A stretch of 64,000 nucleotides of DNA, taken from contig NZ_MWQK01000007.1 of assembly GCF_002210425.1 (NCBI RefSeq), positions 62,001-126,000 on the forward strand. Reading direction: 5' to 3'. A program made the translations under genes and the position numbers. The stretch is from Fibrobacter sp. UWB2 (GTDB lineage Bacteria; Fibrobacterota; Fibrobacteria; Fibrobacterales; Fibrobacteraceae). Positions 5,191-61,527 of this stretch are shown here, piece by piece. Below the pieces are notes generated by a model. That model had not been told where the DNA came from. It made no database searches and saw only the letters and a list, made by a program, of their open reading frames with translations. Position 1 is the first letter of the stretch. Each line of letters starts with the position of its first letter.

Positions 5191-6603
5191 ATGGGATATG
5201 TTTGTAACTTTGCGAAGGGCGTTGCCCTTTTTTTTCCGCTATTTCTTTTTGCTTGCGGAAACTCTGAATCGGTGAATTTCATTTCGCCGAACGAATCGCT
5301 CGTTTCGTTTGGCGGCGAAGCCCAGAGTTCGTCCAGTGAACTTTTGCAAAGTTCATCTTCTTTGACGATTATACAGTCCTCGTCAATAATCACGCAGTCG
5401 TCCTCCTCATCGGTAATCGCGCAATCGTCATCTTCGCGGGTTCCCGTACAATCCTCATCTTCGGTTCTCCCTTCGCCTCCCAATAACGGAGTCCCTTACA
5501 TTCGTATTATAACTTATGATTCTGCAAATGTCGATAGCGCCTACGCTCTTTGTTCTGTTGAAATTGCTGGGAACGGAATTTATGAGGATTTAGCCCCTGC
5601 AAGTGGTAAAATCCGAACTCGTGGAAATTCTACGCGCCTCTGGTACCCTAAAAAGCCTTACCGCGTCAAACTTGATGCAAAGACTTCTGTTCTCGGACTC
5701 CCTGCCAATAAAGATTGGGTGTTGCTTGCGAATTATCGCGATCAAAGCAAATTCATGAATGCGGTTGCTTTTGATATGGCGCGTTACATGGGGAGCTTCG
5801 CTTTTGTGAGCGCCAACCGATTTGTCGAAGTTGAAATCAATGGCGAGTATATGGGCGTCTATCAACTTACTGAGCAAATTGAACGTGGGGTATCACGAGT
5901 CAATACGGGTAATGGAGGGGTGTTGTTGAGTCTTGACAAGGATGATGGACCGGAACTTTCACCGAGTGCCACGAATATTTTCTATAGCAAAATTTACAAG
6001 TTGCCTGTTGCCGTCAAGTACCCTAAAAATGTGACCGCAACGCAAATCGATACCATATCTGCGAACCTTGCAGTTTTGGAACAGGCTATTGCTAATTCCG
6101 ACTATGGCAGCGTTCAAAAACTCATGGATATCAGCAGCTTTATGGATTTTCTAATCTTGCAGGAATTGACGCACAATGTTGAATTAGAAGCCCCGCGCAG
6201 TATGTATTTGTATAAGGATTCTTCGGGTTTGTATCACATGGGGCCTGTATGGGATTTTGATGGTGGGTTTGCTTATAGCTGGGATGAAGATACCAAGAAA
6301 TACTTTGTTGATCAGGACTGGATTTTACATAGAAATCGGGCGGTTTCCGGATTCTTTATAAACTTGTTTGCAAATGAAAATTTCTTGGCTGATTACAAGG
6401 CTCGCTGGGATCAGCTTAAAACAAGTATTCTGGCTGATGTATTTTCAAAGCTAGACGATTATATGTTGCAAACACAAAAGGCTCTTGAAAATGATGCGAT
6501 AAAATGGACACCTGTCCGCAGTTACGTTGACGAAGTTCAAAGCCTCAAAAGCTGGCTTACTGAACGCGTGAACCGTTACGAGTCGGCTTTGCAAAAATAC
6601 TAG
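5191..6603 (+). CDS. CotH-family surface lipoprotein with Ser-rich linker
   Basis: This product has 470 residues from ATG 5191, preceded by AGAGGTG at good spacing; an upstream in-frame GTG is less likely. The N-terminus is a lipoprotein signal (LFLFAC). A linker of repeated SSSS blocks separated by short spacers follows (about 45-95). The body matches the CotH kinase-like family: IRTRGNSTRLWYPKKPYRVK, GVYQLTEQIERG and the diagnostic HMGPVWDFDGGFAY. CotH proteins act as atypical protein kinases in spore coats; family members on bacterial surfaces, and in cellulosome-type systems, are of unclear function. Here it sits among pectin-degrading enzymes, so a surface role in plant-wall breakdown is plausible but inferred. 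Confidence 0.85.
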   Translation: MGYVCNFAKGVALFFPLFLFACGNSESVNFISPNESLVSFGGEAQSSSSELLQSSSSLTIIQSSSIITQSSSSSVIAQSSSSRVPVQSSSSVLPSPPNNGVPYIRIITYDSANVDSAYALCSVEIAGNGIYEDLAPASGKIRTRGNSTRLWYPKKPYRVKLDAKTSVLGLPANKDWVLLANYRDQSKFMNAVAFDMARYMGSFAFVSANRFVEVEINGEYMGVYQLTEQIERGVSRVNTGNGGVLLSLDKDDGPELSPSATNIFYSKIYKLPVAVKYPKNVTATQIDTISANLAVLEQAIANSDYGSVQKLMDISSFMDFLILQELTHNVELEAPRSMYLYKDSSGLYHMGPVWDFDGGFAYSWDEDTKKYFVDQDWILHRNRAVSGFFINLFANENFLADYKARWDQLKTSILADVFSKLDDYMLQTQKALENDAIKWTPVRSYVDEVQSLKSWLTERVNRYESALQKY

Positions 6604-6615
6604 TTAACAAAAGTT

Positions 6616-6641
6616 CTCCCCTCGACATTCGCCGGGGGGAG
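6616..6641 (-). terminator. Terminator of the PL11 gene
   Basis: CTCCCC/GGGGAG stem; on the minus strand it is followed by ACTTTTGTT. It lies between convergent genes, and no T-tract follows on the plus strand. Confidence 0.6.
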
Positions 6642-6669
6642 GATGGGTTGGGTGTTGGATTAGCTTTCG

Positions 6670-8904: not shown

Positions 8905-9004
8905 ATCCTATCCCTTTTATTAGCCGAAAAACCAAACAACAATAATCCGGCAAGATTAATATAAACCTGGATATTGGTGGTGTGCCTAATGAGCTCGATT
9001 TCTC

Positions 9005-9020
9005 GTTGTCTGCGGACAAC
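9005..9020. promoter_or_regulatory. Operator-like palindrome, copy 3 (GTTGTCTGCGGACAAC)
   Basis: A perfect 6-4-6 inverted repeat 101 bp upstream of the PL11 start. It shares an extended flank (AGCTCGATTTCTC) with copy 1, indicating a conserved control region rather than a chance palindrome. Confidence 0.6.
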
Positions 9021-9037
9021 TATTGGTCTTCAAAAAA

Positions 9038-9064
9038 GCACCCCGGCGCTTTCGCCGAGGTGCT
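9038..9064 (-). terminator. Terminator of the HExxH protein gene
   Basis: AGCACCTCGGCG/CGCCGGGGTGCT stem followed on the minus strand by TTTTTTG. It lies just below the stop of the gene ending at 9079. Confidence 0.8.
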
Positions 9065-9078
9065 GTGCTTTTGCTCGT

Positions 9079-11469: not shown

Positions 11470-11662
11470 AACACACTCCATTTTTATGCTATTTAGAGAA
11501 ATAATTTTTGGTGTGCCCTAGTGCAAGTTTTTAAGAAAAATGGAATGATTTTCTGTGTTAGAAGTGTGTAAATGTGTAAGAATAATTAATGAAATATATT
11601 GATTTAATTGTAATTTTGTGTATTTTATTGATTTTTGTGTAAAAATTTTCTAGTTTAAAACC

Positions 11663-12514
11663 ATGTGCATTGCGCTTGAACACTTGTTTGACTATGACGA
11701 CTTCCGCAAGTTCCTGCAAGACTATTTTGAGGAACAGAAGAAAATGCGGTCGGTGTTTTCGCATCGATTTTTTGCAGCAAAAGCGGGATTCAGTAGCTCT
11801 TCTTATTGCCTGAATGTTATCCGTGGGCGCTTCAATTTGACACCGAAATCCATCGAGAAAATTTCAAAGGCGATGGAATTTGAACCGTTGCAAAAGACGT
11901 ATTTTGAGGCGTTGGTGCAGTACAACCAGGCTCAACAAGTTGCCGAACGCGAACACGCTTGGAACCAGATTGTCCAGATTCGCAAGCAAATAGAATTTAC
12001 ACATGTCACGACTCGTGAACAGGGATACTTCGAAAAGTGGTATTATCCGATTGTGCGCGAGTTGGCGGTGTCATCGGATTGGAAAGGTGACTTCCGTGTG
12101 CTTGCGCGTTCTGTTGTGCCGCAGATAACGACGGATGAGGCTCGCGATGCGGTGAAAAAGCTGCTGGAATGGGGACTCTTGAAAAAAGAGGGTGAACGCT
12201 ATGTTGAAACATCGCAAATGCTCGATGCTTCGGAAATTCCGCCAATGGTTTTGCGACGAATCCGTCATGAGTATATGCAGCATGCGGTGGGTGCCGTAGA
12301 ATCCATGCCCAAAGACGAGCGCTTTGCTGCGTTCACGACTCTTGCGATGAGTGAAAAATCCTACAATTATGCGGTAGAGGTGCTGGAAGAAGCCCGCAAG
12401 AAAATTATTGCCCGTGCGGCAAATGATTCGGAGGTGGAACGCGTTTACGAAATGATGCTTGTGGCGTTCCCGATGAGCAAGAAAATAGGGAAGGAGGCGG
12501 AAAATGAAAAATAG
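11663..12514 (+). CDS. TIGR02147/DUF4423 family putative regulator (paired with lipoprotein)
   Basis: 283 residues, cytoplasmic. N-terminal motif LFDYDDFRKFLQDYFEEQKK aligns with the other two copies. An HTH-like stretch follows (FFAAKAGFSSSSYCLNVIRG), then the DUF4423 helical region (FEKWYYPIVRELAV; VVPQITTDEARDAVKKLLEW). The stop overlaps the start of the next gene by 11 bp, and that start has a strong AGGAGG, so the two are translationally coupled. The upstream DNA (11520-11660) is very AT-rich and likely holds the promoter. A regulator whose partner is an exported lectin-like lipoprotein is the simplest reading, inferred from context. Confidence 0.87.
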   Translation: MCIALEHLFDYDDFRKFLQDYFEEQKKMRSVFSHRFFAAKAGFSSSSYCLNVIRGRFNLTPKSIEKISKAMEFEPLQKTYFEALVQYNQAQQVAEREHAWNQIVQIRKQIEFTHVTTREQGYFEKWYYPIVRELAVSSDWKGDFRVLARSVVPQITTDEARDAVKKLLEWGLLKKEGERYVETSQMLDASEIPPMVLRRIRHEYMQHAVGAVESMPKDERFAAFTTLAMSEKSYNYAVEVLEEARKKIIARAANDSEVERVYEMMLVAFPMSKKIGKEAENEK

Positions 12515-13895
12515 GCGAGTTTATCTAAAGTTGTCGCGTAATTGCGTTGCGTGCGTGATGTCGCTTGCGTTTTCGTTGTCGTTCCTGGCTTGCTCGGATA
12601 GCGAAAATGTCGCCGGTGGCGTGACCGATATCGGGAATTCTATTGCAAGGGAGTCTGATACGCTGAGGTATTCCGGTGTAGTGCAGGACTTGCAGGGACG
12701 TGCTGTTCCTGCTGCGCGTGTCGTTGCCTACTTGGATAATTCGAAAGAAATTGTGGATTCGCTTGAAACGGTCGCTGATTCTACAGGATTCTTTAAGTTA
12801 GGTCCGATTTCGAGGATTTCGGCGAAAGGTTCGCCGCGTTTCTATGCGGAATCCAAAGGGCTGTCCGGTTTGCGTGGCGATGGACTCTCTGACGTAAGGT
12901 TGGATACGATTTGTATTGGTCCGCATAAGACTGTAAGCGGAAAAATTGCCGGGGCGACTTCTGGTTATATGCGCATTCCGGGAACGCATTTGCGCTCGCC
13001 GATTGCCGAGGACGGCTCCTTTGCGTTCGATTCCATCCCGTCGGGCTATAGAATGGACCTTGTGTACGTGCAGGATGATTCGGCAATCGCGCATTTTGAA
13101 TTCACGGCGCTTGAATCCAGGGATACGCTACGATTGCCTGAACTTTCGGTCAATGGGGAGTGGCTTACGAGCAACGATATGCCTGTTATTGCGGATTACT
13201 ACGGCTTCCATTATTACCTTCCGTATGATTATTATCTCCCGAATGGAGATGGCGACCCCGAAATAAAAGTTTTTCTCGGCATGGGAAGAGATGTCAACGT
13301 ACTCAACCACGATTCTTCCGTTGCAGGTAACGTAAACTATGTAGATGGTGTGAACGGCAAGGCGGTGCTTTTGGAACCGGGACAATTTATCGACTTGGAT
13401 ACGCTTAATCCAACGGGCGGCGACTTTACACTTTCGCTTTGGACCAAGTGGAATGGCCCTAACGGCGAACACCAGGTGTTGTTTTGCCAGCGAGCTTATT
13501 GGAGTGATTCTACATCGCGATTCCAGTGGCATTATGAGGTGAAGAGCGGAACGTTTGCCGTGATGAAGGGTATGCCGGACTACCCTGGGGCAGTGTATTT
13601 CGGGGATTCGACATCCGTGCCTGTCGGGGAGTGGGCTTTCCTTGTGCTCGTTTCCAAGAATCACAAGGTGAGCATGTATGTGAATGGCGAACCTATAGCA
13701 ATTGCGGGTTCCGATGGAACTGAATTTGCAGGGGGATTTGTGCCGAACGAGCTGAATCGTAACGTCCCCTTCCGCATCGGTGGCGATGAAATCGAGACTG
13801 AAACTTGGAATGGTGTGATTGACGAAGCTCGCGTTGAATCAATCGCCCGTAGCCCTGAATGGATCAATGCCATGTATGAGCGGCTGAAGCCTTAA
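12504..13895 (+). CDS. Lipoprotein with LamG-like (concanavalin-type) C-terminal domain
   Basis: 463 residues starting at ATG 12504 with AGGAGG 7-8 bases upstream. The lipobox is FLACSDSE. Two carboxypeptidase-regulatory-like beta domains follow (YSGVVQDLQGRAVPAARVVA near 55 and KTVSGKIAGATSGYMRIPG near 150). The C-terminal 190 residues match a LamG/concanavalin-type jelly roll: GGDFTLSLWTKWNG, WAFLVLVSKNHKVSMYVNGE and IDEARVESIARSPEWI. Such domains bind glycans or proteins at the surface. It has the same N-terminal plan as the lipoprotein at 14822, but a different lectin domain. Coupled to the TIGR02147 gene upstream. Confidence 0.8.
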   Translation: MKNRRVYLKLSRNCVACVMSLAFSLSFLACSDSENVAGGVTDIGNSIARESDTLRYSGVVQDLQGRAVPAARVVAYLDNSKEIVDSLETVADSTGFFKLGPISRISAKGSPRFYAESKGLSGLRGDGLSDVRLDTICIGPHKTVSGKIAGATSGYMRIPGTHLRSPIAEDGSFAFDSIPSGYRMDLVYVQDDSAIAHFEFTALESRDTLRLPELSVNGEWLTSNDMPVIADYYGFHYYLPYDYYLPNGDGDPEIKVFLGMGRDVNVLNHDSSVAGNVNYVDGVNGKAVLLEPGQFIDLDTLNPTGGDFTLSLWTKWNGPNGEHQVLFCQRAYWSDSTSRFQWHYEVKSGTFAVMKGMPDYPGAVYFGDSTSVPVGEWAFLVLVSKNHKVSMYVNGEPIAIAGSDGTEFAGGFVPNELNRNVPFRIGGDEIETETWNGVIDEARVESIARSPEWINAMYERLKP

Positions 13896-38177: not shown

Positions 38178-39029
38178 ATGCAAGAAATTCCACTTTGGTA
38201 CTGGTTAATTGTGTTTTTTGGCCTTGGCGCTTGCGTCGGGAGCTTCTATAACGTCATTGTTTACCGTATGCCGCGCGGAATTTCCCTGATTAACCCTCCT
38301 TCGCACTGCCCGCTTTGCAAAAAGAGAATCCCGATTCGCTACAATTTGCCGATTGTGGGGTGGCTTTGGCTGCGTGGTAAGAGTGCTTGCTGCAAACGGC
38401 CGATTAGCGTGATTTACCCGATTGGCGAGAGCCTTTGCGGTTTGCTTGGTGCACTTGCTCTTTATGCGGCGGCAGGCTTCGGGACGGACTTTTCGCGACC
38501 GGTCTTGTCGCCTGAGGTTTGGGCGGATGCGGCTGCGATGTTCTGGCTTTTGCTTGGCGCATACCCCGTTTGTGCGGTCGATTGCAAGTACAAACTGATT
38601 CCCGATTCCATCTCGGTCGGCGGAATTGTTGCGGGCCTTTTGATTTCGCTTGTGCCGGGTGGCGTGACGCCTCTCCAAAGCTTGATTGGTGCTGTTGTTG
38701 CGGGTGGCGGACTTTATCTGCTCGGCTGGATTGCGACTAAGGTGCTCAAGAAAGACGCAATGGGTTTTGGCGATGTCAAGCTCTTGGCGGGCTATGGTGC
38801 GCTTATGGGCGTGACTGGCGCTGTAGAAACTCTCTTGGTTGCAGCCCTGCTTGGCATTGTGGTGATGGTTCCGTACGGGATGCTTGCCGCAAAAAAAGCG
38901 GCCAAAAACAAGAATAGCGAGGAAGCCGGGCAAATTCCTTTCGGACCGTTCCTCGCCATTGCAGCCCCGATTATTTATCTCTGGGGCTCAGCGCTTGTGG
39001 ATGCTTATTTAAAGTACGTTTTAAATTAA
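38178..39029 (+). CDS. pilD: Type IV prepilin peptidase
   Basis: 283 residues, polytopic membrane protein. N-terminal GACVGSFYNVIVYRMPRGIS, the zinc-type Cys pairs in SHCPLCKKRIPI and SACCKRPISVIYP, and the two aspartyl-protease motifs (AVDCKYKLIPD and GFGDVKLLAGYG) are all present. The enzyme cuts prepilin-type leaders after Gly and methylates the new N-terminus. Likely substrates in this window are the minor pilin and giant pilin-like proteins at 50374-58507. Stands alone, not in a pil cluster. Named pilD by role. Confidence 0.95.
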   Translation: MQEIPLWYWLIVFFGLGACVGSFYNVIVYRMPRGISLINPPSHCPLCKKRIPIRYNLPIVGWLWLRGKSACCKRPISVIYPIGESLCGLLGALALYAAAGFGTDFSRPVLSPEVWADAAAMFWLLLGAYPVCAVDCKYKLIPDSISVGGIVAGLLISLVPGGVTPLQSLIGAVVAGGGLYLLGWIATKVLKKDAMGFGDVKLLAGYGALMGVTGAVETLLVAALLGIVVMVPYGMLAAKKAAKNKNSEEAGQIPFGPFLAIAAPIIYLWGSALVDAYLKYVLN

Positions 39030-41354: not shown

Positions 41355-41726
41355 TTACTTAGTGCCTTCGGCACAGTTACTAGTTAATAGTTAGTAGTTA
41401 CTAGAAGTTTCTACGTAAACATTTCAAGTAACTATGGTTATTGCGTCGTATTGTTTTTAAATGAATGTATAAATGTTCGTCGAGAGAATAAAGCGTCGGC
41501 CAAGGATGGGGAGGGTGCAGGGAGGGGCCCGTGCGGCCTTCGCAACTCTGAGCTGGGGCCCCGCCCGCATGAAGTTCATTTTAAATTAAAAAGGCTTTGG
41601 GCGTAAGCCCATATCACTTTTCACACCAGTAAATATTCCAATGTGGTATTAGGACTTTGGCGATTCTGCCTCGCTGGAATCGTGTTTCTATTTATATTAA
41701 TTTGGTGCAAGTAGCGAGGTTTGATT
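41355..41726 (+). other. Intergenic region with GC-rich inverted segments
   Basis: No gene recognised. A short repetitive stretch GTTACTAGTTAATAGTTAG at about 41376-41394 and a hairpin AGTGCCTTCGGCACAGT near 41360 follow the CDF gene. At 41520-41565 a very GC-rich stretch has GGGGCCC and GGGGCCCC about 25 bases apart, out of line with its AT-rich flanks; it could form a long hairpin or a small RNA. Nothing else stands out. Confidence 0.5.
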
Positions 41727-46531: not shown

Positions 46532-48694
46532 ATGCGTATCTATAAGCTTTCCCCGATTTTTTCGGCCGCAGTTCTTTTGAGCGCGGGCGTTGCCTCTGCC
46601 GAAACCAAGTTTTTCTACAATCAGGTTGGTTACGATGTCGACCAGCCGATTTCCGTGATTGTCCAAAGCGAGAATCTTGCGGATGGTGCTGAATTTAGCG
46701 TGATGTCGGGTGGGACGGCTGTCAAGACGGGTAAGCTCTCGACGGGTTCGAATCCGGACAACTGGCTGAATAGTGGCAAGTTTTATGTGGCGGATTTGAC
46801 TGGCCTTAAGGCGGGCAAGTACACGCTCCAGGTTTCCGAGAATGGTCAAACGCAGAATTCGGGCGAATTTACGGTTGAAGAAAACGCGCTTGCGAAAAAT
46901 ACGCTTGCAACGGTACTTAATTACTTCTATGAAGACCGTGCGGATGACCCGACTGTTGAAGGTTGGGACAAGAACATGTCCGTTTACAAGTCCGACAAAA
47001 AGCTTGATGTGCATGGCGGCTGGTACGATGCAAGCGGCGATGTGAGCAAGTATTTTAGTCATCTCTCTTATGCGAACTACTTGAATCCGCAGCAGATTCC
47101 TTTGACGGTTTGGTCGCTTGCCTTTGCCTCGGAACGCATCCCGAATTTGCTAGGCTCGACTGCGACTAAGGCAAAAACGGCTGATGAAGCCGCTTATGGC
47201 GCGGATTTTTTGGTGCGTATGCTTGCCGAAGAAGGTTACTTTTACATGACCGTGTTTGACAACTGGGGCTCACCTTTTGGCAAACGTGAAATTTGTGCGT
47301 TCAGCGGTAAGGATGGCGATAAGAGTGCCGATTACCAGACTGCGTTCCGCGAAGGCGGTGGCATGGCAATTGCTGCGCTTGCAAGTGCGGCGAGACTTAA
47401 CCTGAAAGGTGACTTTACAAGCGAACAATACTTGGCAGCGGCTGAAAAGGCATATAAGCATTTGTCCGAAAAACAGGGAATCGGCAAATCATGTGCCTAC
47501 TGCGACGATGGTAAAGAAAACATCATTGACGATTACACAGCGCTTTTGGCGGCGACGGAACTTTATGCGGCGACCAAGACGCAGAGCTATTTGGATGATG
47601 CTTATGACCGTGCCGAACACTTGGCATCTCGTGTCAGTAAAGATGGCTATTTCTGGAGCGATGATGCGAAGACTCGTCCGTTCTGGCATGCAAGCGATGC
47701 GGGGCTTCCGTTGGTTGCCCTTGCTCGTTATAGTGAGGTTGTTGGCGCTATTGACGAAGATGCCGGCATAGAAGTTCATGGTCGGCCATTCCCTTATTGG
47801 GTTTGCCTTACTATGATTGGTGGTGGTTGCGTGAACGAATCTATCGATAATGTTCGTAATGCCATTAGGTCTCATTTTGACTGGCTTGTTAAAATTACGA
47901 ATAAGGTTGATAACCCGTTTGGTTATGCCCGCCAGACTTACAAGACTCAGGACAAAATAAAGGATGGATTCTTTATCCCGCACGATAATGAAAGTAATTA
48001 TTGGTGGCAGGGTGAAGATGCTCGCCTTGCAAGTCTTTCTGCGGCGATAATGTACGCAAATCGCATTATTGACGGCGAATATAGGAATGTTACCACGAGT
48101 GATGTGCTAAAATATGCTACGGATCAGCTCGACTGGATTTTGGGCAAGAACCCGTATGCAACGTGCATGATGTACGGCAAGGGACTTAAGAATCCGAAAA
48201 AGTATGATGGCCAGTCCGAATACGACGCGACGCTTGAAGGCGGCATTGCAAACGGCATTACCGGCAAGAATCAGGATGGCTCGGGCATTGCCTGGACTGA
48301 CGACGGCGTTGGTGCAGTGGGCTTTGATTCTGAAAAGGAATCTTGGCAGGTGTGGCGCTGGGATGAACAGTGGCTGCCGCACAGCACATGGTACTTGATG
48401 GCGCTCGTGGAACGCTATGATGAAGTGACAAAGCCTGTGGAATTCTCTGTTGGACTTCCGAAGTCTGTGGCTGCGGCAAAGTTCGGCATCTCGCTAGTTG
48501 GCAAGACGCTCTCGCTTGATTTGCCGAAATCCGCGGTGGGGCGTTCCGTCAAGATTTTGAATGTGCAGGGCAAAGTACAAATGCAAAAGATCGCCCAAAG
48601 CAAGAACGAAACGATGAACGTGAACGCACTCAAGAGCGGACTTTATCTTGTGCAAATTCAGGGTTTCTCCGCCAAGAAGTTTGTTGTAAAGTAA
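46532..48694 (+). CDS. GH9 cellulase with N-terminal Ig-like domain
   Basis: 720 residues with a signal peptide (VLLSAGVASA). An Ig-like CelD_N domain covers about 25-110 (FFYNQVGYDVDQPISV). The GH9 catalytic domain begins near 120; HGGWYDASGDVSKYFSHLSY holds the catalytic Asp pair, Asp166 and Asp170, with one extra residue between the usual DAGD positions (DASGD). Later elements are YWWQGEDARLASLSAAIMYA and LDWILGKNPYATCMMYGKG. The C-terminal 75 residues form a sorting-type domain (SGLYLVQIQGFSAKKFVVK). Secreted; hydrolyses beta-1,4-glucan. It lies between an HMGL-like gene and pheS, with no operon partner. Confidence 0.93.
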   Translation: MRIYKLSPIFSAAVLLSAGVASAETKFFYNQVGYDVDQPISVIVQSENLADGAEFSVMSGGTAVKTGKLSTGSNPDNWLNSGKFYVADLTGLKAGKYTLQVSENGQTQNSGEFTVEENALAKNTLATVLNYFYEDRADDPTVEGWDKNMSVYKSDKKLDVHGGWYDASGDVSKYFSHLSYANYLNPQQIPLTVWSLAFASERIPNLLGSTATKAKTADEAAYGADFLVRMLAEEGYFYMTVFDNWGSPFGKREICAFSGKDGDKSADYQTAFREGGGMAIAALASAARLNLKGDFTSEQYLAAAEKAYKHLSEKQGIGKSCAYCDDGKENIIDDYTALLAATELYAATKTQSYLDDAYDRAEHLASRVSKDGYFWSDDAKTRPFWHASDAGLPLVALARYSEVVGAIDEDAGIEVHGRPFPYWVCLTMIGGGCVNESIDNVRNAIRSHFDWLVKITNKVDNPFGYARQTYKTQDKIKDGFFIPHDNESNYWWQGEDARLASLSAAIMYANRIIDGEYRNVTTSDVLKYATDQLDWILGKNPYATCMMYGKGLKNPKKYDGQSEYDATLEGGIANGITGKNQDGSGIAWTDDGVGAVGFDSEKESWQVWRWDEQWLPHSTWYLMALVERYDEVTKPVEFSVGLPKSVAAAKFGISLVGKTLSLDLPKSAVGRSVKILNVQGKVQMQKIAQSKNETMNVNALKSGLYLVQIQGFSAKKFVVK

Positions 48695-50327: not shown

Positions 50328-50353
50328 AAAAAGCTCCCCGACGGGGAGCTTTT
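50328..50353 (-). terminator. Terminator of the giant pilin-like gene
   Basis: AAAAGCTCCCC-GTC-GGGGAGCTTTT, then T run on the minus strand. Confidence 0.88.
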
Positions 50354-50373: not shown

Positions 50374-53300
50374 TTACCAATCGTGTCTACAGTACATGCC
50401 TTTGCCTTGTGGTGTTGATTGATTAGAGTTTGGTGCTGGGGATGTTTTTGGAGCGAGTATCTCTACATTTGCGATGTATCCATTGTAGCATTTGGTATTT
50501 TGCCCGTCAACGGTCTTTCCTTGAGTTTGGTTGGATTGAACTTCTACAAGCATACCGTTGTATCTCATTTGACAATCGTAATAATTCCATTCGGCATTGG
50601 GACATTTACATATTAATTGTCCTGAATTTTTATTTCCTGTGCATGCAATTTTGTGCGTTCCCTCACTAATGAAAGTCCAATTACCTCCGTAAGTGAGTTC
50701 GATATCTCCACTTTGTTGGCTTTGGAAAGACACATTGAAGTTACAAGAATAGTTGTGTCCTTCGTTGTCCGAAACCTCAAAACGATAAGTTCTAGTTCCT
50801 GTAGCGTTATTGTCGTAGAAAAATAGTTCATTGTTTTCGTTTTTCTGTACATTGTTGTAGAGTATTTTGTATTCGCAATCTGTACAATCCGAAGTATGGC
50901 CATTTATGGTAATCTGAGCGCTTGCACTCACATTGATAATGTTTTCTGGATTTTGATTGGTGATTGTTGTAGGGCAAGTTGCTGAAAGAGTCGAAGTTAC
51001 TGATAGAGTTTTTGTACACGTTTGTGTTTCCCCACCATTGATTGTGATGGAGTACCTATAGGTTCCGGATCCCGCCATTCCTGGAGTATAAGAATATGCA
51101 AGGCTTGTTTCATTACTTGAACCGCTTTGACCGGCAAAAACATTACCTAATGGGTCGGTAACTCCGAAGGTATAGGTGTATTGGATTTCATCGGGGTTGC
51201 TGATGCTAACTGTGAATGATCCATTATTGTCTACTTCGCTTGATTCGCAGTTGATTGTTGGTGGGGTTTTCTGGACACCGTCTTCAACGTTGAAATCGGC
51301 AGTGCAGGACTGTGCCCACATTGATGCGTATGGTCCATTTCCGAACCAAGTTTCAACCTTGTATTGATGTTCGCCACTGGAAGGCTTTGTGTCTGATGAT
51401 ATGTTTTGGTTGGATCCTAATTTTGCACTGCCTTCTTTTATAACATCGTCGTCTAAGGATACTCTATAATTGGCTGTTACTCTATCCCAGCCAGGTCCGA
51501 GCCTTGGTTCACCGATTTTAAATGAGAATGTAGGTGCATCACTGCCTGTGGTAATGTTTGTTGGGATTACGCTACAGGTGGGTGTAAATGTTCCTAAATT
51601 TTCTCCTGTGACTGTGCAAGAAACTGTGGAACCATTGTTGTCCAAAGCTGTTACTGTAAAGGAGGGGGCGCTGCCCAACCAATAGTAACCGTTTTCCTTA
51701 TATGTTAAGAACGTCTCTGAATTTGTGCATCCGATGATGTTTTCAAGGGGTTCTATATTGTTGTCTGATGATGTGTAAGAGCATTTTATGCTTGGACTCA
51801 TCGGGTGGACTTTTACATCGACTTTCCACCCTTTATTAGGATCAAAATGCGCTTTTTCACATTCAATAGAAAGCTTGTTTGAGCATTTGTTTGCTATATG
51901 GATGTTTTTAATATAGATGTTGTTGTCGCTTGTAATAATGATTTTTGAAACATGCTGTGGATCAAATCCAAAAACGTTTGATAAAATGTCAATTCCAATT
52001 TCGTGATGTCCGGCAGTACTGATTAATCTTGACGAACTTTTTATTCCGTTTGTTGACTGTAATTGAATTTCCAAATTAGCGTTAAGGTTATTGTTTTCGT
52101 CATTTGAGTCGTCTGTTTCAATATCAATATGCAAAATGGAGCCACGCATGTTTATGTATCCATCGCCATTTTCTTCTGTTGAAATTTCTTCAGGAACGTT
52201 GCTTGTTAAATATATGGGCTTATCAGGTATAGAAAGTTCACTTGAGCAATTAGTAACCTTTCCAACCCAGAATGTGCCACAGCTATAGTATTCTTTAGCA
52301 AGGTCCAGACTTGTAACTTCTCCTGGACAAACGACTTTTACGGATGCATCTTGGGCCCTTTTATCATCATCTACAAGGTATCCATGAGCTCCTTCCGCTG
52401 TAAATTTGTAATTGCTTCCCGACAATGTCGCTCCGATTTCTCCAGGTTCGCCTGTGCCGTTTACGCAGAGAGATGTTGCATTGTCACATCCGTTGTAGTG
52501 GTATTCTATTACACAATTTTTATCAGTAAACCAACTGGATATAATGACTTTGGGGGTGACCTCTTCATTAAGGGGAACCGTTTCGCCTACATATTTGTCA
52601 GCGAAGGAACATGATATCGAGGGAAGTTCCCAGCATTGGTCATTGAACGAGGCTGATGTCCAGCCATTATCAAATATTTTAAATTCAGGATCTGCTAAAC
52701 TGAAACCAACGTAGGTATGTGTAATGTCGTTGAACCCAAAGTCCTTGATACTGAGTTCGCCGGACCATGCTTTGTTATTTACGCTAGCATTAACCGTTAA
52801 TAAATCTTTATTGTCGATTGTGAAAGCCACTTTGATGAAATCCGTGCTGGATATGGGTACATTCAATACGTCTTTTCCTTTTGGAATAAGTTTGCAATCA
52901 CCTTGATTTTTATTGTTTATTGCTTGGCCAACCACTTTGCAAACTCGGAATGTTAAGTCTCCTGAGCTTTTTCCTGCAGTACTAGTTCCATAAACGTTTA
53001 GTATTAAGTGTTCTTTCCCGTTACTCCTAAAAATAAATCCCGTATTTAAGAATTCATTTGGATTTGAACTTGCAAGAATGGCTGTTTGTATAAGGGCGTT
53101 CATTGTACCATATTGTCCTGCATTCTTGTTTCTGAGAATTACCGATACTTTTCCGCTCTGATTGTTTCCATTCTGGTTATTGGGGGCGAAAATAGAGCCT
53201 GAGCCAAAATTAGGTCGAATGTAATTGGAATTGTTTCCTTTGCCATTGTTGTGGTATGTCATTAGCCAGTGTGATTTTGGTTGTTTGCTGTTTCTAGGAT

Positions 53301-56300
53301 CGCATACTTGCCCTCCTTCAATAATTGTTGCGCATGTATCTATGCAGTTTTCCGCGTCAGTGTCGCAAAATGCCGTTGTTTGTGAAAAATCATCGTAATA
53401 GCAATGGGATTCAACACCGTAATCAGCAGTAATTGTATGACTGCTGTAGAATCTGAATTCTTCTTCATCATTGTAATAGGTAGATTTTGAGCAATTATCT
53501 CCAGAACATCTCCAAAAAGCAAAACTTTCTTTGTCTTCACCGTAATCCTCATGAGAAATGATAATTGGAGCGCCTGCGATGATGTTATATTGGCAAGGAT
53601 AGGGGGTGCTGTTTTTTGTGCAACGGTGCTCAGTAGATGTCATTTGGTCGTAAACGCGAACATACGTGTCGTCATCTTTGTTGTCATTGAGCTTGACTGT
53701 CAGTTCCACTTTTTTGTGTTTTAGTGATGCGTAAAGATTTTGAGATTCACCACTGTGTGGTTCATCGATGCTATTGTTGTCTGTTGGTATGACGATTTCG
53801 CAGTTGGATGGAATATCGGATTCGTTTACGGATACAAGAGAAATTGCCGTATTCGTTAGGCATGACCACCGGTCATTTTTGACAATTTCACTACAGCCTG
53901 TACCACTGACCGTAATCCATTCACCCTCATAGATGCAGTCTGGATAATGGCTTTTTTCTAGAGTCGCTGCATCACAAGTGAAGTTATCACAGTAGTCGGA
54001 TATGGAGGCTCTGGTTATATATAAATGGCCTCTTACGTAAACATGATGAGTGTTTTTAGAGCCTCCGATGATGCATTGCTCAGTTGGCGTAGTTAAAGAT
54101 ATGTGAATGTCTCCGTCTTGAGCATCTGCTTCTGTTGATACCTTTAAGACATCGATTATTTGATCTTCGGACGCATTAGGTGTAACTTCTACGGTGTAAT
54201 AATGTCTACCGGAAAATCCTCCTGAGCGTTCCTTGATGTAGGTTGCTCCACTAGGTGGCGTAACAGTCCATCCAGAAGGAATGTCTCCAAAAGAAAAATC
54301 AAATTTTATTTTTCCGTTGACGGCTTTGGATTTGTCGATTTTTACGGATACGGTGACTTCTTCTCCTAATTCTAGTGATTGATCACGTTCTGTGAAATTG
54401 ACTTCTGGGAGATCACCACTTGCGTCTGAAACTACAACGTAGAATGGGATATCGCCATAGTTTTGTGATTTATATTCGCATCTGTGCGTACCGACGTCCA
54501 AATAGGAAGATGTGTACATTTTCCCTGTTGGTGGAATAGAAGGATTGCATGACACGTTTGAAGCGTTCTTGACTTCGTTTGCTCCATTTAAGTTGATGAC
54601 AGAATAGTAGTCTGCTAATGTTCCTGGTGCATCTTTTGGGAGATAAATGATGCGAGGAAGGATTAATATTGAAGGATCTAGTTCTGCAGCATCTGCAGGT
54701 GTATCTTCTGATGACTTGTATTGTGTTTCAAGAGTTATTCCTAGCTGTGGTGCAATGGATATAAAGTAAGGGTCTTTCCCGTTAATGGCTCCTTCTGCTG
54801 ATGCTGAACTTGTCGGTTCGGCGACAGAAGATGAACTTGTGGCTACACCTCCACAATTAGTGACAGAAGCGTCGCAAATAATTCTGCTTTGGTTGAGGCT
54901 GTTGAGCAAATCATGGTTGAATTTCATTTCCTTATTTGATGTGAGTGCCGCAACTTTTGAACAACTTGCGGCTTCAGCGTAGACGGAACCGCTAAGGGTT
55001 GCGTTGTTGAAGAGAATGCCTCCACTCGGAGATATAGAATTGTCTGCCGCATTGTATGATGATGAGCCTACATTTCCCTTTGTGTAAATGAAGTAGTTGT
55101 AAGTGTCGGTTCCTTGTCCGACTATTTCTCCTGCGCCTTCTTGTAAGTACAGAAATACATAATCATTGATGCCTGCTGTGGGTGGGGGCGCCATTTGCGA
55201 GGGCTTGTTTGTTACGATGATTATGAATTTTCCTTTAAGTCCTTCTGAATAATCCTTTTTTTGTGTGGATGTAACCTTTACAACTAAATACCCATTATAG
55301 AGATCAGTTTTCTTTTTTTCTTCATCTTTGATATTTGTATCATAACAGCTATTTGCGTTTGTAACAAAGTTTTCGTCCATTTCTGTGATGTCTTTAGCAC
55401 ATCCTTTATTTGCATAATCTTCGAATGCATCGTATGCAGTTTTTAAAATATCATCAACTTTAAATTTAGCTCCATCGCATCCTGGTTTTTCTTTCCATAT
55501 GTCGTAGCAAACTTTTCTTACAGAGTCGGCACAGGCTATTGGTCTTGATGATGGTAAATTGTGTGTGACAGTACCATTTGACTTAAACCATGGCGATACA
55601 TGGCATTCTGGGCGAAATTTGTCATTGTTGTGAATACAATAGGGGGACCTTTTTTGTGGAAATCCGTCTCCATAATTGTATTCTGCCCATGTATTTGGTT
55701 CATTTGTTTTGTGATAGACTTTGCCACCTATAAAATAGGCCCCCATAGCCGAAGGCGATTCCCATGCACCTGCGGTTCTATTTTTCCAATATGTATTGTT
55801 GTATTCTTTAAATTCGACATCTGTTACTCCTGGCTCAACGTAATAAAAGTAGTACATATCTGAATTCGGTGCGATATAGCCGTATGGAGTTCTTGAATCA
55901 TCATGCCAATAGTCCCATTGGTGGTATTCTCTTTCAGAACTATTTGAGTTTTTATTGTAACAGCCGTATTGTCCATAACCAATTGATATAGGATTACTGC
56001 AGTGTTGTCTGTAACTTGAGTTTTCTATAAATGTTTTATTTTCTCTCAGTTTTACGTAATCGCGATGAGGGTAAGCATCTATAATATATACTTTAGATGA
56101 ATTCTTGTTGCCTAAGATGATTTTATTATAGTGCTCGTGAAAATCCCCATGATTTGGATCTCTTGCATAGAAAGAATATGGGTGTGTAATCCAGACATCT
56201 CCATCAACACGAAAGTCGCAGTTGTATTGTGTAGTCGTGCCTTGCATTCCGCCAATTTGAACTTGTGCATTTGGGCCAAGGCACAGATTTCCTTCAATTG

Positions 56301-57165
56301 TAAAAGCCGCACTTCCTGTACCCATGCTAGTTTTGACTTTATTATTGGATGTCATGTTTCCGCCAATTCTGATTTCTCTATTTTGGTCCTGTTCCAGAAC
56401 TCCATCAAAATAGGCGTGGTTTGAAACACCTATGGCGTTCTTTGTGCCAAATTGTTTTGAAGTCCCTGCTACATAGATGTTTGCGGCGTCAATGCCGTTA
56501 TCTGCAAATAAATCACCTCCGAAACAGCCTGTTCCGTAAATGTAGACGTTGTTACCGGATAGTTTTGCGTTACCTGTGATAATGATGTTCTTGTCAATTC
56601 CAAGAGGATTTCCGTACCAGTTTCCGTTAATGAGCATTGATGATAGTTTTGCCGATCCGTGGTTGGAAATAGAAGCTCCGAAGTAGGAGTAATCATAAGC
56701 GATATTTTTAATTTCGACTTCTTCTTCTGGAGGAGTGACTTGGTAAAGTCCTGAAACGTTAATTATGGCTGCTTCTGTGTATTTGGAATTGTCACGAGAA
56801 ATACCTTCGGATAGTATCTTTAATTTGTGGTGTCCGTTGATTTCTGTTACGCCTGTAAGCCATACGTTAAAATTTTGCTTTCTGTTTATGTGGGCTGCGA
56901 CGCGACTGTTTAGCAATATCGGCTGTTTCCCATTCAAAAGGTATTGCTTTATTAAGGCGCCGACATCATTTGCGTTATTGGTCATCCAAGCTCTGATACT
57001 CTGAATGCCTGCATTGGCGCTCAGCCTTGCTTCTTGTATTTCCATTCTAGAGGAGGACGACTTGTTTTCGGATGTCAGCCATTTGAATGTAGCTGTTGCG
57101 GCAATTGTCGCAACAAGCATGAATAGAAGAACTGTTATAAGAGAAACACCTTTTTTGTTAAACAT
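50374..57165 (-). CDS. Giant protein with prepilin-like (PilX/GspK-type) N-terminus
   Basis: 2,263 residues from ATG 57165, with AGGAG 7 bases upstream; the longer frame overlaps the previous gene. MFNKKGVSLITVLLFMLVAT shows a prepilin-type leader (Gly then hydrophobic helix) but lacks Glu5, as in PilX/GspK proteins; ARLSANAGIQSIRAWMTNN fits the helix that follows. Beyond about 150 it is almost wholly beta-rich: right-handed-helix-like turns near 150-330, Ser-rich linkers (SSSSVAEPTSSASAE), a lectin-like domain near 1360-1500, and Ig-like repeats to the C-terminus, with many Cys. Such a fusion of a minor pilin anchor and a long adhesin-like body suggests a pilus-tip or surface adhesin. Second in an operon with a PilW-like gene 10 bp upstream. 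Confidence 0.85.
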   Translation of the reverse strand: MFNKKGVSLITVLLFMLVATIAATATFKWLTSENKSSSSRMEIQEARLSANAGIQSIRAWMTNNANDVGALIKQYLLNGKQPILLNSRVAAHINRKQNFNVWLTGVTEINGHHKLKILSEGISRDNSKYTEAAIINVSGLYQVTPPEEEVEIKNIAYDYSYFGASISNHGSAKLSSMLINGNWYGNPLGIDKNIIITGNAKLSGNNVYIYGTGCFGGDLFADNGIDAANIYVAGTSKQFGTKNAIGVSNHAYFDGVLEQDQNREIRIGGNMTSNNKVKTSMGTGSAAFTIEGNLCLGPNAQVQIGGMQGTTTQYNCDFRVDGDVWITHPYSFYARDPNHGDFHEHYNKIILGNKNSSKVYIIDAYPHRDYVKLRENKTFIENSSYRQHCSNPISIGYGQYGCYNKNSNSSEREYHQWDYWHDDSRTPYGYIAPNSDMYYFYYVEPGVTDVEFKEYNNTYWKNRTAGAWESPSAMGAYFIGGKVYHKTNEPNTWAEYNYGDGFPQKRSPYCIHNNDKFRPECHVSPWFKSNGTVTHNLPSSRPIACADSVRKVCYDIWKEKPGCDGAKFKVDDILKTAYDAFEDYANKGCAKDITEMDENFVTNANSCYDTNIKDEEKKKTDLYNGYLVVKVTSTQKKDYSEGLKGKFIIIVTNKPSQMAPPPTAGINDYVFLYLQEGAGEIVGQGTDTYNYFIYTKGNVGSSSYNAADNSISPSGGILFNNATLSGSVYAEAASCSKVAALTSNKEMKFNHDLLNSLNQSRIICDASVTNCGGVATSSSSVAEPTSSASAEGAINGKDPYFISIAPQLGITLETQYKSSEDTPADAAELDPSILILPRIIYLPKDAPGTLADYYSVINLNGANEVKNASNVSCNPSIPPTGKMYTSSYLDVGTHRCEYKSQNYGDIPFYVVVSDASGDLPEVNFTERDQSLELGEEVTVSVKIDKSKAVNGKIKFDFSFGDIPSGWTVTPPSGATYIKERSGGFSGRHYYTVEVTPNASEDQIIDVLKVSTEADAQDGDIHISLTTPTEQCIIGGSKNTHHVYVRGHLYITRASISDYCDNFTCDAATLEKSHYPDCIYEGEWITVSGTGCSEIVKNDRWSCLTNTAISLVSVNESDIPSNCEIVIPTDNNSIDEPHSGESQNLYASLKHKKVELTVKLNDNKDDDTYVRVYDQMTSTEHRCTKNSTPYPCQYNIIAGAPIIISHEDYGEDKESFAFWRCSGDNCSKSTYYNDEEEFRFYSSHTITADYGVESHCYYDDFSQTTAFCDTDAENCIDTCATIIEGGQVCDPRNSKQPKSHWLMTYHNNGKGNNSNYIRPNFGSGSIFAPNNQNGNNQSGKVSVILRNKNAGQYGTMNALIQTAILASSNPNEFLNTGFIFRSNGKEHLILNVYGTSTAGKSSGDLTFRVCKVVGQAINNKNQGDCKLIPKGKDVLNVPISSTDFIKVAFTIDNKDLLTVNASVNNKAWSGELSIKDFGFNDITHTYVGFSLADPEFKIFDNGWTSASFNDQCWELPSISCSFADKYVGETVPLNEEVTPKVIISSWFTDKNCVIEYHYNGCDNATSLCVNGTGEPGEIGATLSGSNYKFTAEGAHGYLVDDDKRAQDASVKVVCPGEVTSLDLAKEYYSCGTFWVGKVTNCSSELSIPDKPIYLTSNVPEEISTEENGDGYINMRGSILHIDIETDDSNDENNNLNANLEIQLQSTNGIKSSSRLISTAGHHEIGIDILSNVFGFDPQHVSKIIITSDNNIYIKNIHIANKCSNKLSIECEKAHFDPNKGWKVDVKVHPMSPSIKCSYTSSDNNIEPLENIIGCTNSETFLTYKENGYYWLGSAPSFTVTALDNNGSTVSCTVTGENLGTFTPTCSVIPTNITTGSDAPTFSFKIGEPRLGPGWDRVTANYRVSLDDDVIKEGSAKLGSNQNISSDTKPSSGEHQYKVETWFGNGPYASMWAQSCTADFNVEDGVQKTPPTINCESSEVDNNGSFTVSISNPDEIQYTYTFGVTDPLGNVFAGQSGSSNETSLAYSYTPGMAGSGTYRYSITINGGETQTCTKTLSVTSTLSATCPTTITNQNPENIINVSASAQITINGHTSDCTDCEYKILYNNVQKNENNELFFYDNNATGTRTYRFEVSDNEGHNYSCNFNVSFQSQQSGDIELTYGGNWTFISEGTHKIACTGNKNSGQLICKCPNAEWNYYDCQMRYNGMLVEVQSNQTQGKTVDGQNTKCYNGYIANVEILAPKTSPAPNSNQSTPQGKGMYCRHDW

Positions 57166-57175
57166 TGCTACACTC

Positions 57176-58507
57176 CTAATCTCTGGGTCCATTGCTGGGT
57201 ATAGACACAATAGCTGTCTCTGTACCTGTTTCGCCATTTTTGTTTATGGCGATTTCTATTTTTAGGGCTTTTACATTTTTTTTGTCTGCGATGGCAAGAA
57301 TCTCATCTGTAAATGTGTAATTTGAACTTGCTATTTTTCTGAGCTTTATATTGGCTAAGTTTATATTTCCTGCAGATGCAACAGGTGAAAAACTCGCAAA
57401 TGTAAATGCCAAGCATACGCCTTCGATGGTTTCGTTGGTTGTGAAGCGCATTTTACGAAGTCCTGTATCTTTGCTGTCGCCAACTGTTGGTGGGTAAAAT
57501 TGAAAGTCGCTAAGGCTACTAGGCTTGTTTCCGTTTTCTGCATATCTAAAACCGACGGCCATGTGATCTCGTCCTGGGCAAAACATTCGACTAGGGTCAT
57601 TTTCTGTAAGAGGCATTGAAAACGAAATTTCGTACTCAATATAAGGCTCTAGAGTTATTTGAGTACACTGAAAATTCCAGGAGGTAATATCGTCACTTTG
57701 ATTAGCCAAGAAAACTTGGTTTGCTTTAATTTGGTCTTTATTTGTAATGGGGATGTTTGCATCAAAATCGTAGTTCATGGAAAAACCTGATAGTCTGATA
57801 GTTTCTCCTCCATTTGGAGGGTCGATATTGATGGGCTCAAAATTGCCATCTCCAAAACGCGAAATGAGTTTGAATGCTTTTACGGATTCAGAACTTGACG
57901 GAAGAACACTAGTCATTGTGACTGTTGTACTTGGTTTGGCGGGTGTAATTTTAAATTTGTCAATACCCTCGGCGATTATTACTATTGCGGAATCTGTTGA
58001 TGGGCAATTTTCATCTTCGGTGTTTGAAACTAATGTTCGACAGGCTCTTTTTAAAACATTGTCTTCCACAAACCAGGTTACTTGTTCTACGGCGTCATAC
58101 GCACCTGAGCTTGTGTAGCGCAAACGACGCATTGTAATTTTGTCTAATCCCGTACCGCCATCGTTTTGCGTGATTATAAATGAAGATGAGTCTTTATCGG
58201 AGTCTGTGATATTGTCGGGATCCATATATACGTCATGCATATGAGCTGTGCTGAAAACATTCATTGAGGTAATAGTCGGATCATCAGTTTCTGTGGAACT
58301 TTTTGCGCCGAGTTGTGCTATATCGTCTTTTAATATCGAGGATACATTCCCAACAATTTGGTTTGCCTGCAGCATGCTCTGCGTCCTAATTCGCATTTTG
58401 GTGCTATCGCTGAATGCCTGCCCTGCAATGAGGACAATACCTCCAAGAAGGGCTATGTAGACCATCAGCTCCATGAGGGTAAAACCAGTTTTAAATTTAA
58501 AATTCAT
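57176..58507 (-). CDS. Minor pilin-like protein (PilW/GspJ-type N-terminus)
   Basis: 443 residues from ATG 58507, with AGAGGA upstream; the longer frame starts inside an untranslated region. MNFKFKTGFTLMELMVYIAL is a classic prepilin leader: cleavage after Gly8, Phe+1 and Glu+5. The region after the helix (TQSMLQANQIVGNVSSILKD) matches PilW/GspJ-type minor pilins. The C-terminal 250 residues are beta-rich; LEPYIEYEISFSMP, VEGVCLAFTFASFSPV suggest a carbohydrate-binding-like beta sandwich fused to the pilin. The giant pilin-like gene follows after 10 bp. Processing by the prepilin peptidase at 38178 is likely. Confidence 0.88.
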   Translation of the reverse strand: MNFKFKTGFTLMELMVYIALLGGIVLIAGQAFSDSTKMRIRTQSMLQANQIVGNVSSILKDDIAQLGAKSSTETDDPTITSMNVFSTAHMHDVYMDPDNITDSDKDSSSFIITQNDGGTGLDKITMRRLRYTSSGAYDAVEQVTWFVEDNVLKRACRTLVSNTEDENCPSTDSAIVIIAEGIDKFKITPAKPSTTVTMTSVLPSSSESVKAFKLISRFGDGNFEPINIDPPNGGETIRLSGFSMNYDFDANIPITNKDQIKANQVFLANQSDDITSWNFQCTQITLEPYIEYEISFSMPLTENDPSRMFCPGRDHMAVGFRYAENGNKPSSLSDFQFYPPTVGDSKDTGLRKMRFTTNETIEGVCLAFTFASFSPVASAGNINLANIKLRKIASSNYTFTDEILAIADKKNVKALKIEIAINKNGETGTETAIVSIPSNGPRD

Positions 58508-58600
58508 TTTAATTCCTCTACACCACATCGTTTTTACCATTAAAAATAAGTTTTTTGGAAATAAAATGAAAAAATATTTTTTCAGCGTGGCTAGTATCAC

Positions 58601-58634
58601 CAAAAAAGGAACCCCGAAGGGTTCCTTTTTTGAA
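58601..58634 (-). terminator. Terminator of the single-chain ABC importer gene
   Basis: AAAAAAGGAACC-CCGAA-GGGTTCCTTTTTT. The same sequence, with its flank GAATGCTT, recurs at 61528-61567. Confidence 0.9.
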
Positions 58635-58637
58635 TGC

Positions 58638-61451
58638 TTAGTCGACAGTCATGGTAAGTGTCGAAGAATCCTCTGTAATTTGAATATTCTGACAGTACTT
58701 TTTCAACATACTGACTGACAGCAGGTTTTTATCGGATTCAAGGATTGTCGGATCAATTTTTTCTGCACTGACAATCGATATCCTTGAAAATCCGTCTTTT
58801 TCGGAGTATTCCAGTGAAACTTTCAAACCAGGAACAGGTTTCACAATGGAGAGAGCCTCTTCAATGGAGTGTTCTACGGCTTCAATATGCATTCTAGAAC
58901 AATTAAACATTTCGCAGAACGACTTCATCTGCGCCATCATGGCATACCAGTCAAATTGTTCACTGTTAATCTGGAAAGTCGATTCATGAATTTGGTGAAT
59001 GAACTTGCGGGTCTTTTCGCGTTGCGGGTGTTCAAAAATCTGCTCCGGTGTTCCCTCTTCGTAAACAACACCTTCGTCAAAGTAACAGACGCGAGTACTC
59101 ACTAAACGTGCAAAACGCATTTCATGAGTAACAATAAGCATCGTGATTCCTTCGCGGGCAAGGCGGGTCATCACCGCGAGCACTTCGCTTACCATTGTCG
59201 GGTCAAGTGCCGAAGTGGGTTCGTCGAACAATAGAATTTCAGGATGCATTGCCAACGCTCTTGCAATGGCGACACGCTGCTTTTGACCACCAGAAAGGTC
59301 TTCGGGCATGGAGTTTGCCTTTTCGCCCAAGCCCACCATATTCAAAAGTTTCCTTGCCTCAGCCTCAGCTTCGTTTCGGGACATCCCCAACAACTTCATC
59401 GGCGAAATGGTAATGTTATCTAAAATAGTCATACCTTCAAAAAGGTTGAACGACTGGAAGACCATTCCCATTTTTTGACGAATTATGGGAACATTGGCCT
59501 TGGGCGACAAAATGTTTACGCCCTGAATGAAAATGTCTCCGCTTGTAGGCTTTTCTAACAGGTTTAAGCATCTTAAGAAGGTACTCTTTCCAGTGCCCGA
59601 AGGGCCGATAATAGAAATGACATCCCCCTTGTGCACTTCGAGATTCAGGTCTTTTTGTACAAGCAAATCTCCATATTTCTTTTGCAGATGCGAAACAGAA
59701 ATTAGAGCTTTAGAGGAATCTTTTTCAAAACGGGGAGGCTCCTTACGTGAAAGGCGGAGTCGAACGACAACGAAAATGCCCAGGCCGACAAAGAGTGCGC
59801 TTAGGACAAGTGCGATTGTCCATGGATTTCCTGTTTTTTTAGATTCCGCATTAATCGGTAGCTCGTTAGAATCTTTTCTGACAAACGCCATTTCGACCTG
59901 ATCATAATAGGGTTCCGAAAACAGGACCTCTTGAGCGCGTTCTTCAGTTTGTCCGATTCCTGCAATAACAACATCACCTTTCTTTGCCGACAGGTATGGA
60001 ATAAGCGCATCATATTCTATCACATCTATAACAATGGACCGCCCAATAACGTCACCAAACATCATTCCGAGTTCTACCTCAAAACCCGAGGGCTTTCCGT
60101 TCACAATGAGGTTATAGGGAGGGTATGCACCTTCGGTGGCGACGCGTATCGGAGCCCCGCTTAAATGGGTCGCTTTTTGTGTAGGAATCGGATGTTTGGA
60201 GGGATCCGCACCGCGAAGCCACTTGTTGATTAACGAATCCAGCTCTCCAGTATTCTTAATTTGTTTAAGAAAGTCGTTGAATTCTTTCTGCAAGGCCGTA
60301 TTCGTTTTTTCAAACAAAGCACAAAGTCCATATGTTTCGTCTGTAAAAGACAATGTATCCACAGGGATTCCACTCTGCATGGCATTCAGGATGACCGCTT
60401 TGTCTTCTACCCCAAAATCAGCACGGCCGTTAACCACCGCTGTAAACGCGTCTGGTGTTGTCATCACTCGTAGCATTTTAGTGTTGCGGAAAATATCATC
60501 TGCAGCATAGTCCGCTTCGGTCCCCAATTGCACGACCATCGTCGCATTTTGCATATCTTCAAGAGTGCGAATCGTTTTTGCTACAGTCGAAGAGTTTTGA
60601 GTAGTGTTGCTAGATTCGCCGAAATTAAACAAACAGAAAAATGCGAGCAAAACAGCTGTAATGCCGGTGCACCAATAACGCTTGATAGCTAGATTTTTTA
60701 TCATAAAGCCGATTGCCCAGGCCACGATAAAGTAAATGACAGCCGAAACGATGAGTGGAACGAACGCTTCGTAAGTACGTGAACGGACGATATCGCATGT
60801 ACGAGTCAGGTCAATGACGGCAATATAGCCCACGATACTCGTTTCTTTAAGCAGGGCAACCACTTCGCCTTGATAGACCGGTAAACCTCTCTTGATGACT
60901 TGACCCAAAATGATTCTAAAGAAAGTTTGTCTAGGGGTGTGCCCCAAGGCAAGACCAGCTTCTGTCTGCCCATAATTGATATTTTCGATGGCGGAGCGAA
61001 AAATTTCACTAAAATAGGCCGATGTATTGATACCGAAAGTGATGATGGCCACAAGGACACCCGAAGCGTTGAACGGAGAAAGAAACACGTAAAACATCAG
61101 CAGGAGTAGCACCAGCACAGGGACCCCTTCTATCACATCTACATAGATAGCAGCAAAACGCTGAAGGAGCTTAAATTTGCTTAGGCGCATCCAACATACA
61201 AAGCCCCCTAATATCGTTCCTATAATGGTTGCAAAAATGGTGATAGTCAACGTTATCTGTAAACCCTCAAGAATCATCTTGTAACGATCCTCTACGATAA
61301 AGTTTTTTTGGAAGCTAGCGACAATAGAATTCCAAAGACCGGAATCTGCCGCCAAAGGCAAACTATCGCTCACATTTTGGGCAAAAGCCCCTTGTGCCAA
61401 TAAGCATAAAACAGCAGCGAATACAAAAAAGAATGAGGCGTAGTCTTTCAT
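58638..61451 (-). CDS. Single-chain amino-acid-type ABC importer (permease, permuted binding domain, ATPase)
   Basis: 937 residues from ATG 61451 (AAGGAG upstream). Signal peptide, then a HisM/GlnP-type permease domain (about 60-260) with the EAA loop [20 protein letters not shown]. After a further helix the periplasmic part reads lobe 2 of a family-3 solute-binding protein first (about 293-414: [20 protein letters not shown] to [13 protein letters not shown]) and lobe 1 second (433-528: [38 protein letters not shown]). A helix (about 544-566) leads to a full ABC ATPase: Walker [10 protein letters not shown] (616-624), [15 protein letters not shown], Walker [15 protein letters not shown] last domain of about 110 residues is unassigned. 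It would import polar amino acids or similar solutes. Not an operon. Confidence 0.92.
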
Positions 61452-61527
61452 AAGCGCTCCTTTTCCCCTTTCCAATATTTTTTCTGTTACAACAATTAAA
61501 TGTACATTAGAAAAAAAGAAAATGGAA

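Follow-up and report, generated by a model that had tools for sequence, protein, structure and literature searches.

Within a 64,000-nucleotide window (the whole stretch of Fibrobacter sp. UWB2 DNA that was analysed) lies a two-gene unit in which a J-type (PilW-like) prepilin with a large extension (W; 443 residues, 57176–58507, minus strand) is followed by a giant K-type (PilX/GspK-like) prepilin (X; 2,263 residues, 50374–57165, minus strand). On balance we favour a reading in which X is a giant modular tip pilin, with W-X forming the J-K end of the Fibrobacter type IV pilus (T4P) minor-pilin tip complex, and serves as an adhesin under diversifying exchange. By sequence X is a modular pilin of the K type, extreme in size, which the whole family has in common and which is exchanged together with W as a two-gene cassette.

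A giant prepilin with a K-type leader

X is defined by its frame, its leader and its homologues. It begins with an ATG at 57165, 5' of which stands an RBS-like GGAG, and continues without an internal stop. The preliminary description had placed a 2,263-residue frame after a PilW-like pilin, and its coordinates are right; a frame break separating leader from body was looked for, and X is one intact frame. Full-length homologous frames across the Fibrobacteraceae rule out a chance or broken frame.

The leader reads MFNKKG^VSLITVLLFMLVATIAATATF, with the cleavage mark after Gly6, a residue that is invariant among 20 aligned homologues. Glu5 is lacking: position +5 is Thr in the window protein and A, T or V, never Glu, in all 41 homologues. 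A leader ending in Gly, a hydrophobic helix and no Glu at +5 are among the marks of a K-type pilin, and the proposal of a PilX/GspK-like leader is borne out by profile searches, PilX_N matching the window protein at E=7e-4 and 16 of 20 homologues (best E=2.5e-8), with weak GspK matches in 13 of the 20. By sequence, then, the leader is of the PilX/GspK "K" type. In type IV filaments a K subunit without Glu5 caps the H-I-J-K complex at the filament tip (PMC10191384, PMC9934059).

W upholds the earlier claim of a W-type minor pilin partner: Glu5 is present as normal, N_methyl matches 20/20 homologues, and W lies directly 5' of X in each of the 41 giant loci examined in Fibrobacteraceae. At these loci W is 410–490 residues long and the W-X gap runs from -71 to +15 nt; in the window, 10 nt separate the W stop from the X start codon. 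The full order H-I-W-X, which is that of the T4P tip tetrad H-I-J-K, is found in at least 17 giant loci. In the window's genome H and I are located on another contig (C5), behind a gene that by eye is RecJ-like, and W-X adjoins pheS, apart from H-I. Distances among W proteins correlate with those among X proteins (Mantel r 0.78, 0/2,000 permutations), as expected of co-inherited, possibly fitted partners. The G+C content is 40% in the pair, 48% in the window as a whole and 56–57% in pheS and gpmI. The pair is bounded by an intrinsic terminator after X (50329–50353, minus strand) and by the terminator of the gene upstream of W (58598–58632, minus strand). A promoter scan performed no better than on shuffled sequences.

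Pilus machinery

The prepilin peptidase that the preliminary description had seen in the window is a PilD of 283 residues (38178–39029, plus strand; Pfam A24_N_bact 7e-28, Peptidase_A24 3e-15). The same genome has PilM, PilO and PilQ in one cluster (contig C2), and besides PilD it encodes pilins, PilC and PilB/PilT-like ATPases. For strain S85 and relatives an earlier catalogue of core T4P genes exists, covering PilB, C, D, M, N, O, Q, T and pilins (PMC4704652). The S85 genome paper judged the T4P set incomplete and linked S85 adhesion to T4P pilins (PMC3079729).

A second, T2SS-like secretin operon (L052, contig C4) encodes its own 332-residue K-like protein and two small pilin-like proteins, and X therefore most likely serves the T4P. 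This bears on the very improbable alternative that X is the K subunit of a type II secretion pseudopilus and stays in the periplasm, a view to which the weak GspK matches lend something: that system is already supplied with a small K-like gene and pilin-like genes, and a body of 2,000 residues is without an evident pseudopilus role. The K-like protein of the second operon (8522–9520, minus strand, of L052) weakly matches a FapA beta-solenoid domain (E=3e-4, below the cut-off).

Two further observations concern pilins and secretion. On contig C6 (L054) two leaderless pilin bodies (8444–8800 and 9658–10011, both minus strand) lie beside intact pilins in the opposite orientation (5798–6325 and 10651–11178, both plus strand). 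The leaderless bodies start exactly at the point where the shared core of the intact pilin stops, with short 77–88% DNA identity at the junction, and they resemble silent pilin cassettes such as pilS in Neisseria. Within the window, a 720-residue protein that by eye is cellulase-like (46532–48694, plus strand) ends in a sorting-like tail, GLYLVQIQGFSAKKFVVK, which by sequence is suggestive of type IX secretion.

Spread and growth of the pair

Giant frames homologous to X are present in 36 of the 37 genomes searched within the genus, and the 41 homologues examined in Fibrobacteraceae are mostly 2,000–2,800 residues long. When 168 genomes of the phylum were searched with PilX_N, frames from Fibrobacteraceae were nearly always of about 1,900–2,970 residues, the few shorter ones including contig-cut or broken copies; frames from outside the family had 654–803 residues or fewer than 200. 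In one genome (G155, locus L075) the giant X is split into overlapping frames of 1,562 and 796 residues (6113–10801 and 10623–13013, plus strand) by a frameshift, whether genuine or introduced during assembly. The search for W was positive in 76 of 80 genus genomes and in 40/40 of good quality, at one to three copies each. At two loci outside the family (L081 and L083) W has 281 and 269 residues.

A genome of the same order (G038, locus L086) carries an X of 1,500 residues (5272–9774, minus strand) beside a W of 464 residues. The N-terminal module of this X can still be recognised (E=9e-15), and the protein is an intermediate between the family's giants and the K proteins of 650–800 residues seen elsewhere in the phylum. 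Because relatives outside the family and G038 have smaller or intermediate pairs, W and X appear from their sequences to have grown together, in steps.

The body of X

Conservation falls along the protein. The leader, hydrophobic helix and pilin-like module (residues 1–145; 56731–57165, minus strand) are the best conserved part, with pairwise identity of 0.70 over residues 1–40, then 0.53 and then 0.42; the first cysteine is at residue 214 and the pilin module is thus Cys-free. A short-stranded region, delimited by conservation and a weak model (residues 146–795; 54781–56730, minus strand), follows; it contains a hypervariable stretch at about 360–520 with identity of only 0.07–0.11, a helical segment at about 547–621 and a Ser-rich linker at about 776–791. 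Further on are a Cys-containing domain (residues 1250–1515; 52621–53418, minus strand), a beta-sandwich-like module with no meaningful sequence match (residues 1645–1765; 51871–52233, minus strand) and a beta-rich, fast-evolving C-terminal region (residues about 1870–2263; 50374–51557, minus strand) with identity of 0.04–0.21, falling to 0.04–0.12 in the last 100 residues. The body was rightly called Cys-rich, X having 62 cysteines, many of them invariant among homologues.

The same description had called the body lectin- and Ig-like, for which no sequence library gives support. Beyond the leader, searches with single proteins and with profiles, of X and of its lectin-like and CBM-like parts, gave no meaningful match in Pfam, NCBIfam or PDB; CBM, LamG and fibro-slime (TIGR02148) domains were not found in Pfam and NCBIfam sequence searches, and the PF05567 beta-propeller of PilC/PilY1 is absent from the Pfam matches. 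For A6 the best PDB matches, to the SSB1 chaperone (E=0.002), lack plausibility and were taken as chance. Alignment with hhalign showed no relation between the lectin-like part of X and a LamG protein encoded in the window, nor between the part termed CBM-like and W.

Two AlphaFold models of parts of X were built, each on three-sequence alignments, and both are weak. The model of residues 1245–1870 (mean pLDDT 53) has fold matches to the SraP ligand-binding region, the Aap lectin, VIP36 and galectin-8, and with low confidence residues 1250–1515 may resemble ConA-like lectins. As the fold matches come from weak models, lectin-like is to be taken as a lead. What stands of the earlier interpretation is the pilin-anchored giant with its W partner, the unbroken frame and the prepilin peptidase, with further support from the tetrad in relatives and from the T4P machinery of the genome; the lectin content is reduced to the fold of a weak model. 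The model of residues 1–795 (mean pLDDT 39) has a helix at 9–63, pilin-like strands at 100–134 and a run of short strands at 190–360. A fold search with it gave no match; its phosphatase hits were set aside as chance, a model at this pLDDT being unusable for such a search. A beta-solenoid in residues 146–795 is possible from this model, as a lead weaker than the lectin-like one.

The short strands would suit the idea that X is the tip of a competence pilus that captures DNA, like Thermus ComZ, a pilin of the K type in which a large beta-solenoid is present (PMC6561018). We regard this as improbable, since the 1–795 model returned no fold match for a beta-solenoid and the other 1,500 residues of X are without parallel in ComZ. 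That X is a dedicated adhesin for cellulose or the plant wall, its diversity of classes mirroring different plant polymers, is an idea that goes back to the preliminary description and that the fibre-degrading habit of the family, the reportedly somewhat higher expression of S85 T4P pilin genes on cellulose (PMC4668043) and the ConA-like fold matches would suit. It nonetheless seems unlikely given the lack of CBM, LamG and fibro-slime sequence matches in X, and near-identical genomes with different X classes (see below) would be odd for one fixed substrate.

Exchange of the W-X cassette

Seventeen genomes close to the window at pheS (92–100% DNA identity; PheS 98.5–100% at the amino acid level where complete) were compared. 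Their X proteins fall into seven classes and, leaving apart the genome G113 discussed below, are 25–58% identical to the window's X, with W at 41–71%; in most of the 17 the W-X cassette adjoins pheS. Partnerships are not fixed. One X class is accompanied by different partner classes in G133, G004 and G001/G148, and another occurs with two different partners or alone.

G113 belongs to another species and carries the window's W-X at 99.2% identity over 8,300 bp, in a block whose two edges are the terminators that flank the pair, one upstream of W and one after X. Outside the block, identity between the two genomes is 82–94% across some 15 kb of nearby genes and 86% at gpmI. A 99.2% block ending at terminators between such flanks is, on the sequence evidence, the product of a recent transfer that took in the W-X transcription unit and nothing else. 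Part of the class pattern probably goes back to old paralogy followed by differential loss, an account that does not extend to the G113 block. From these comparisons W-X emerges as an exchangeable cassette, kept family-wide and swapped between species as a block. Neither the family-wide giant nor a cassette that changes class between near-identical genomes was part of the preliminary description.

G113 also lacks the gene that separates gpmI from W in the window. The open reading frame there, of 945 residues (58638–61475, minus strand), by eye resembles a fused amino-acid ABC transporter with permease, binding protein and ATPase, and is flanked by near-identical terminators at about 58630–58600 and 61558–61529. 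Since matching terminators flank a gene that is missing in G113, terminators may be recombination sites. Elsewhere in the window a G+C-rich stretch of about 100 bases (41477–41592) recurs in many copies at 85–100% identity in 7/7 Fibrobacter genomes checked; it has no Rfam match and its predicted fold is no better than those of shuffles.

Swapping of W-X suggests a fast-changing tip that grips, or is recognised by, the outside world. The force behind exchange might instead be kin recognition, or pressure from phages or protists, with the tip as receptor or antigen and adhesion secondary. Seven X classes beside a near-invariant PheS, and the transfer of a whole cassette at 99.2% between genomes 82–94% identical nearby, would be in keeping with such pressure; cassette exchange would suit niche adaptation too, and we consider this account possible though short of probable. 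Cellulose is one possible ligand of X, and the exchange pattern also fits phage or neighbour recognition; overall it fits variable tip recognition better than a fixed cellulose-binding device.

A model for the pilus tip

In the reading of X as a tip pilin, processing, disulphides, tip position, adhesion and ligand are points that we infer. PilD would cleave X after Gly6, and its Glu5-less helix would cap the H-I-J-K complex that initiates pilus assembly, assembly being started, as in the tip complexes already known, by X together with W, I and H. With the helix of X capping the initiating complex, its body would be the first part out through the secretin; that some 240 kDa can pass is assumed. 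The disulphide-stiffened body of about 2,000 residues would then be displayed at the tip of the pilus and act there as a long, modular adhesin, with the enlarged W as the matched partner that seats it. X may thereby do the job of PilY1 elsewhere: PilY1 (PF05567) was detected in 0/168 phylum genomes, in a search run without a positive control, making X a natural candidate for the tip adhesin. W-X pairs may diversify, and be swapped as whole cassettes, because the body would meet plant polymers, other cells and phages.

Parallels exist in other pili. X resembles PilX/GspK-type minor pilins in its leader, its lack of Glu5 and its place as last gene of the tetrad, but these are typically a few hundred residues long, to which X adds about 2,000; relatives in the phylum outside the family have 650–800. 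Streptococcus sanguinis PilB and PilC (PMC8179133, PMC9934059) are likewise pilins that carry non-pilin modules for tip display, Ig-like and ConA-like lectin modules in the case of PilC; unlike X they are of about 50 kDa, have Glu5 and contain recognisable domains. The survey of modular pilins names as its most extreme multi-domain case a protein of 860 residues (PMC8179133), although it was keyed on another leader motif and may have missed the X family. Thermus thermophilus ComZ (PMC6561018) shares with X a K-like pilin fold, a large inserted module and a proposed tip location; ComZ is smaller, with a proven beta-solenoid and DNA as ligand, whereas in X a solenoid is only possible and a 1,500-residue body is added. 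PilC/PilY1 shares with X a very large, modular build and a proposed place on top of the tip tetrad, but is not a pilin and has the PF05567 beta-propeller, which was not found in X. In the open-access literature we found no paper naming PilX in Fibrobacter, and the accessible S85 papers do not name the X protein.

Fibrobacter holds on to plant fibre without a cellulosome, and how it does so has long been asked; pili have been implicated, and the accessible literature names no pilus tip adhesin for the genus. The conserved unit with its giant K-type pilin, present in each Fibrobacter genome of good quality, offers a concrete adhesion candidate, and this pilin has over double the length of the multi-domain pilin that the published survey gives as its most extreme case. 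Exchange from terminator to terminator amounts to a natural experiment in which near-identical strains bear different pilus tips. We tentatively propose that in Fibrobacter the J-K cassettes, one to three per genome in differing combinations and swapped between strains and species on a common pilus machine, may constitute a combinatorial repertoire of giant tip proteins that sets what each strain's pili recognise.
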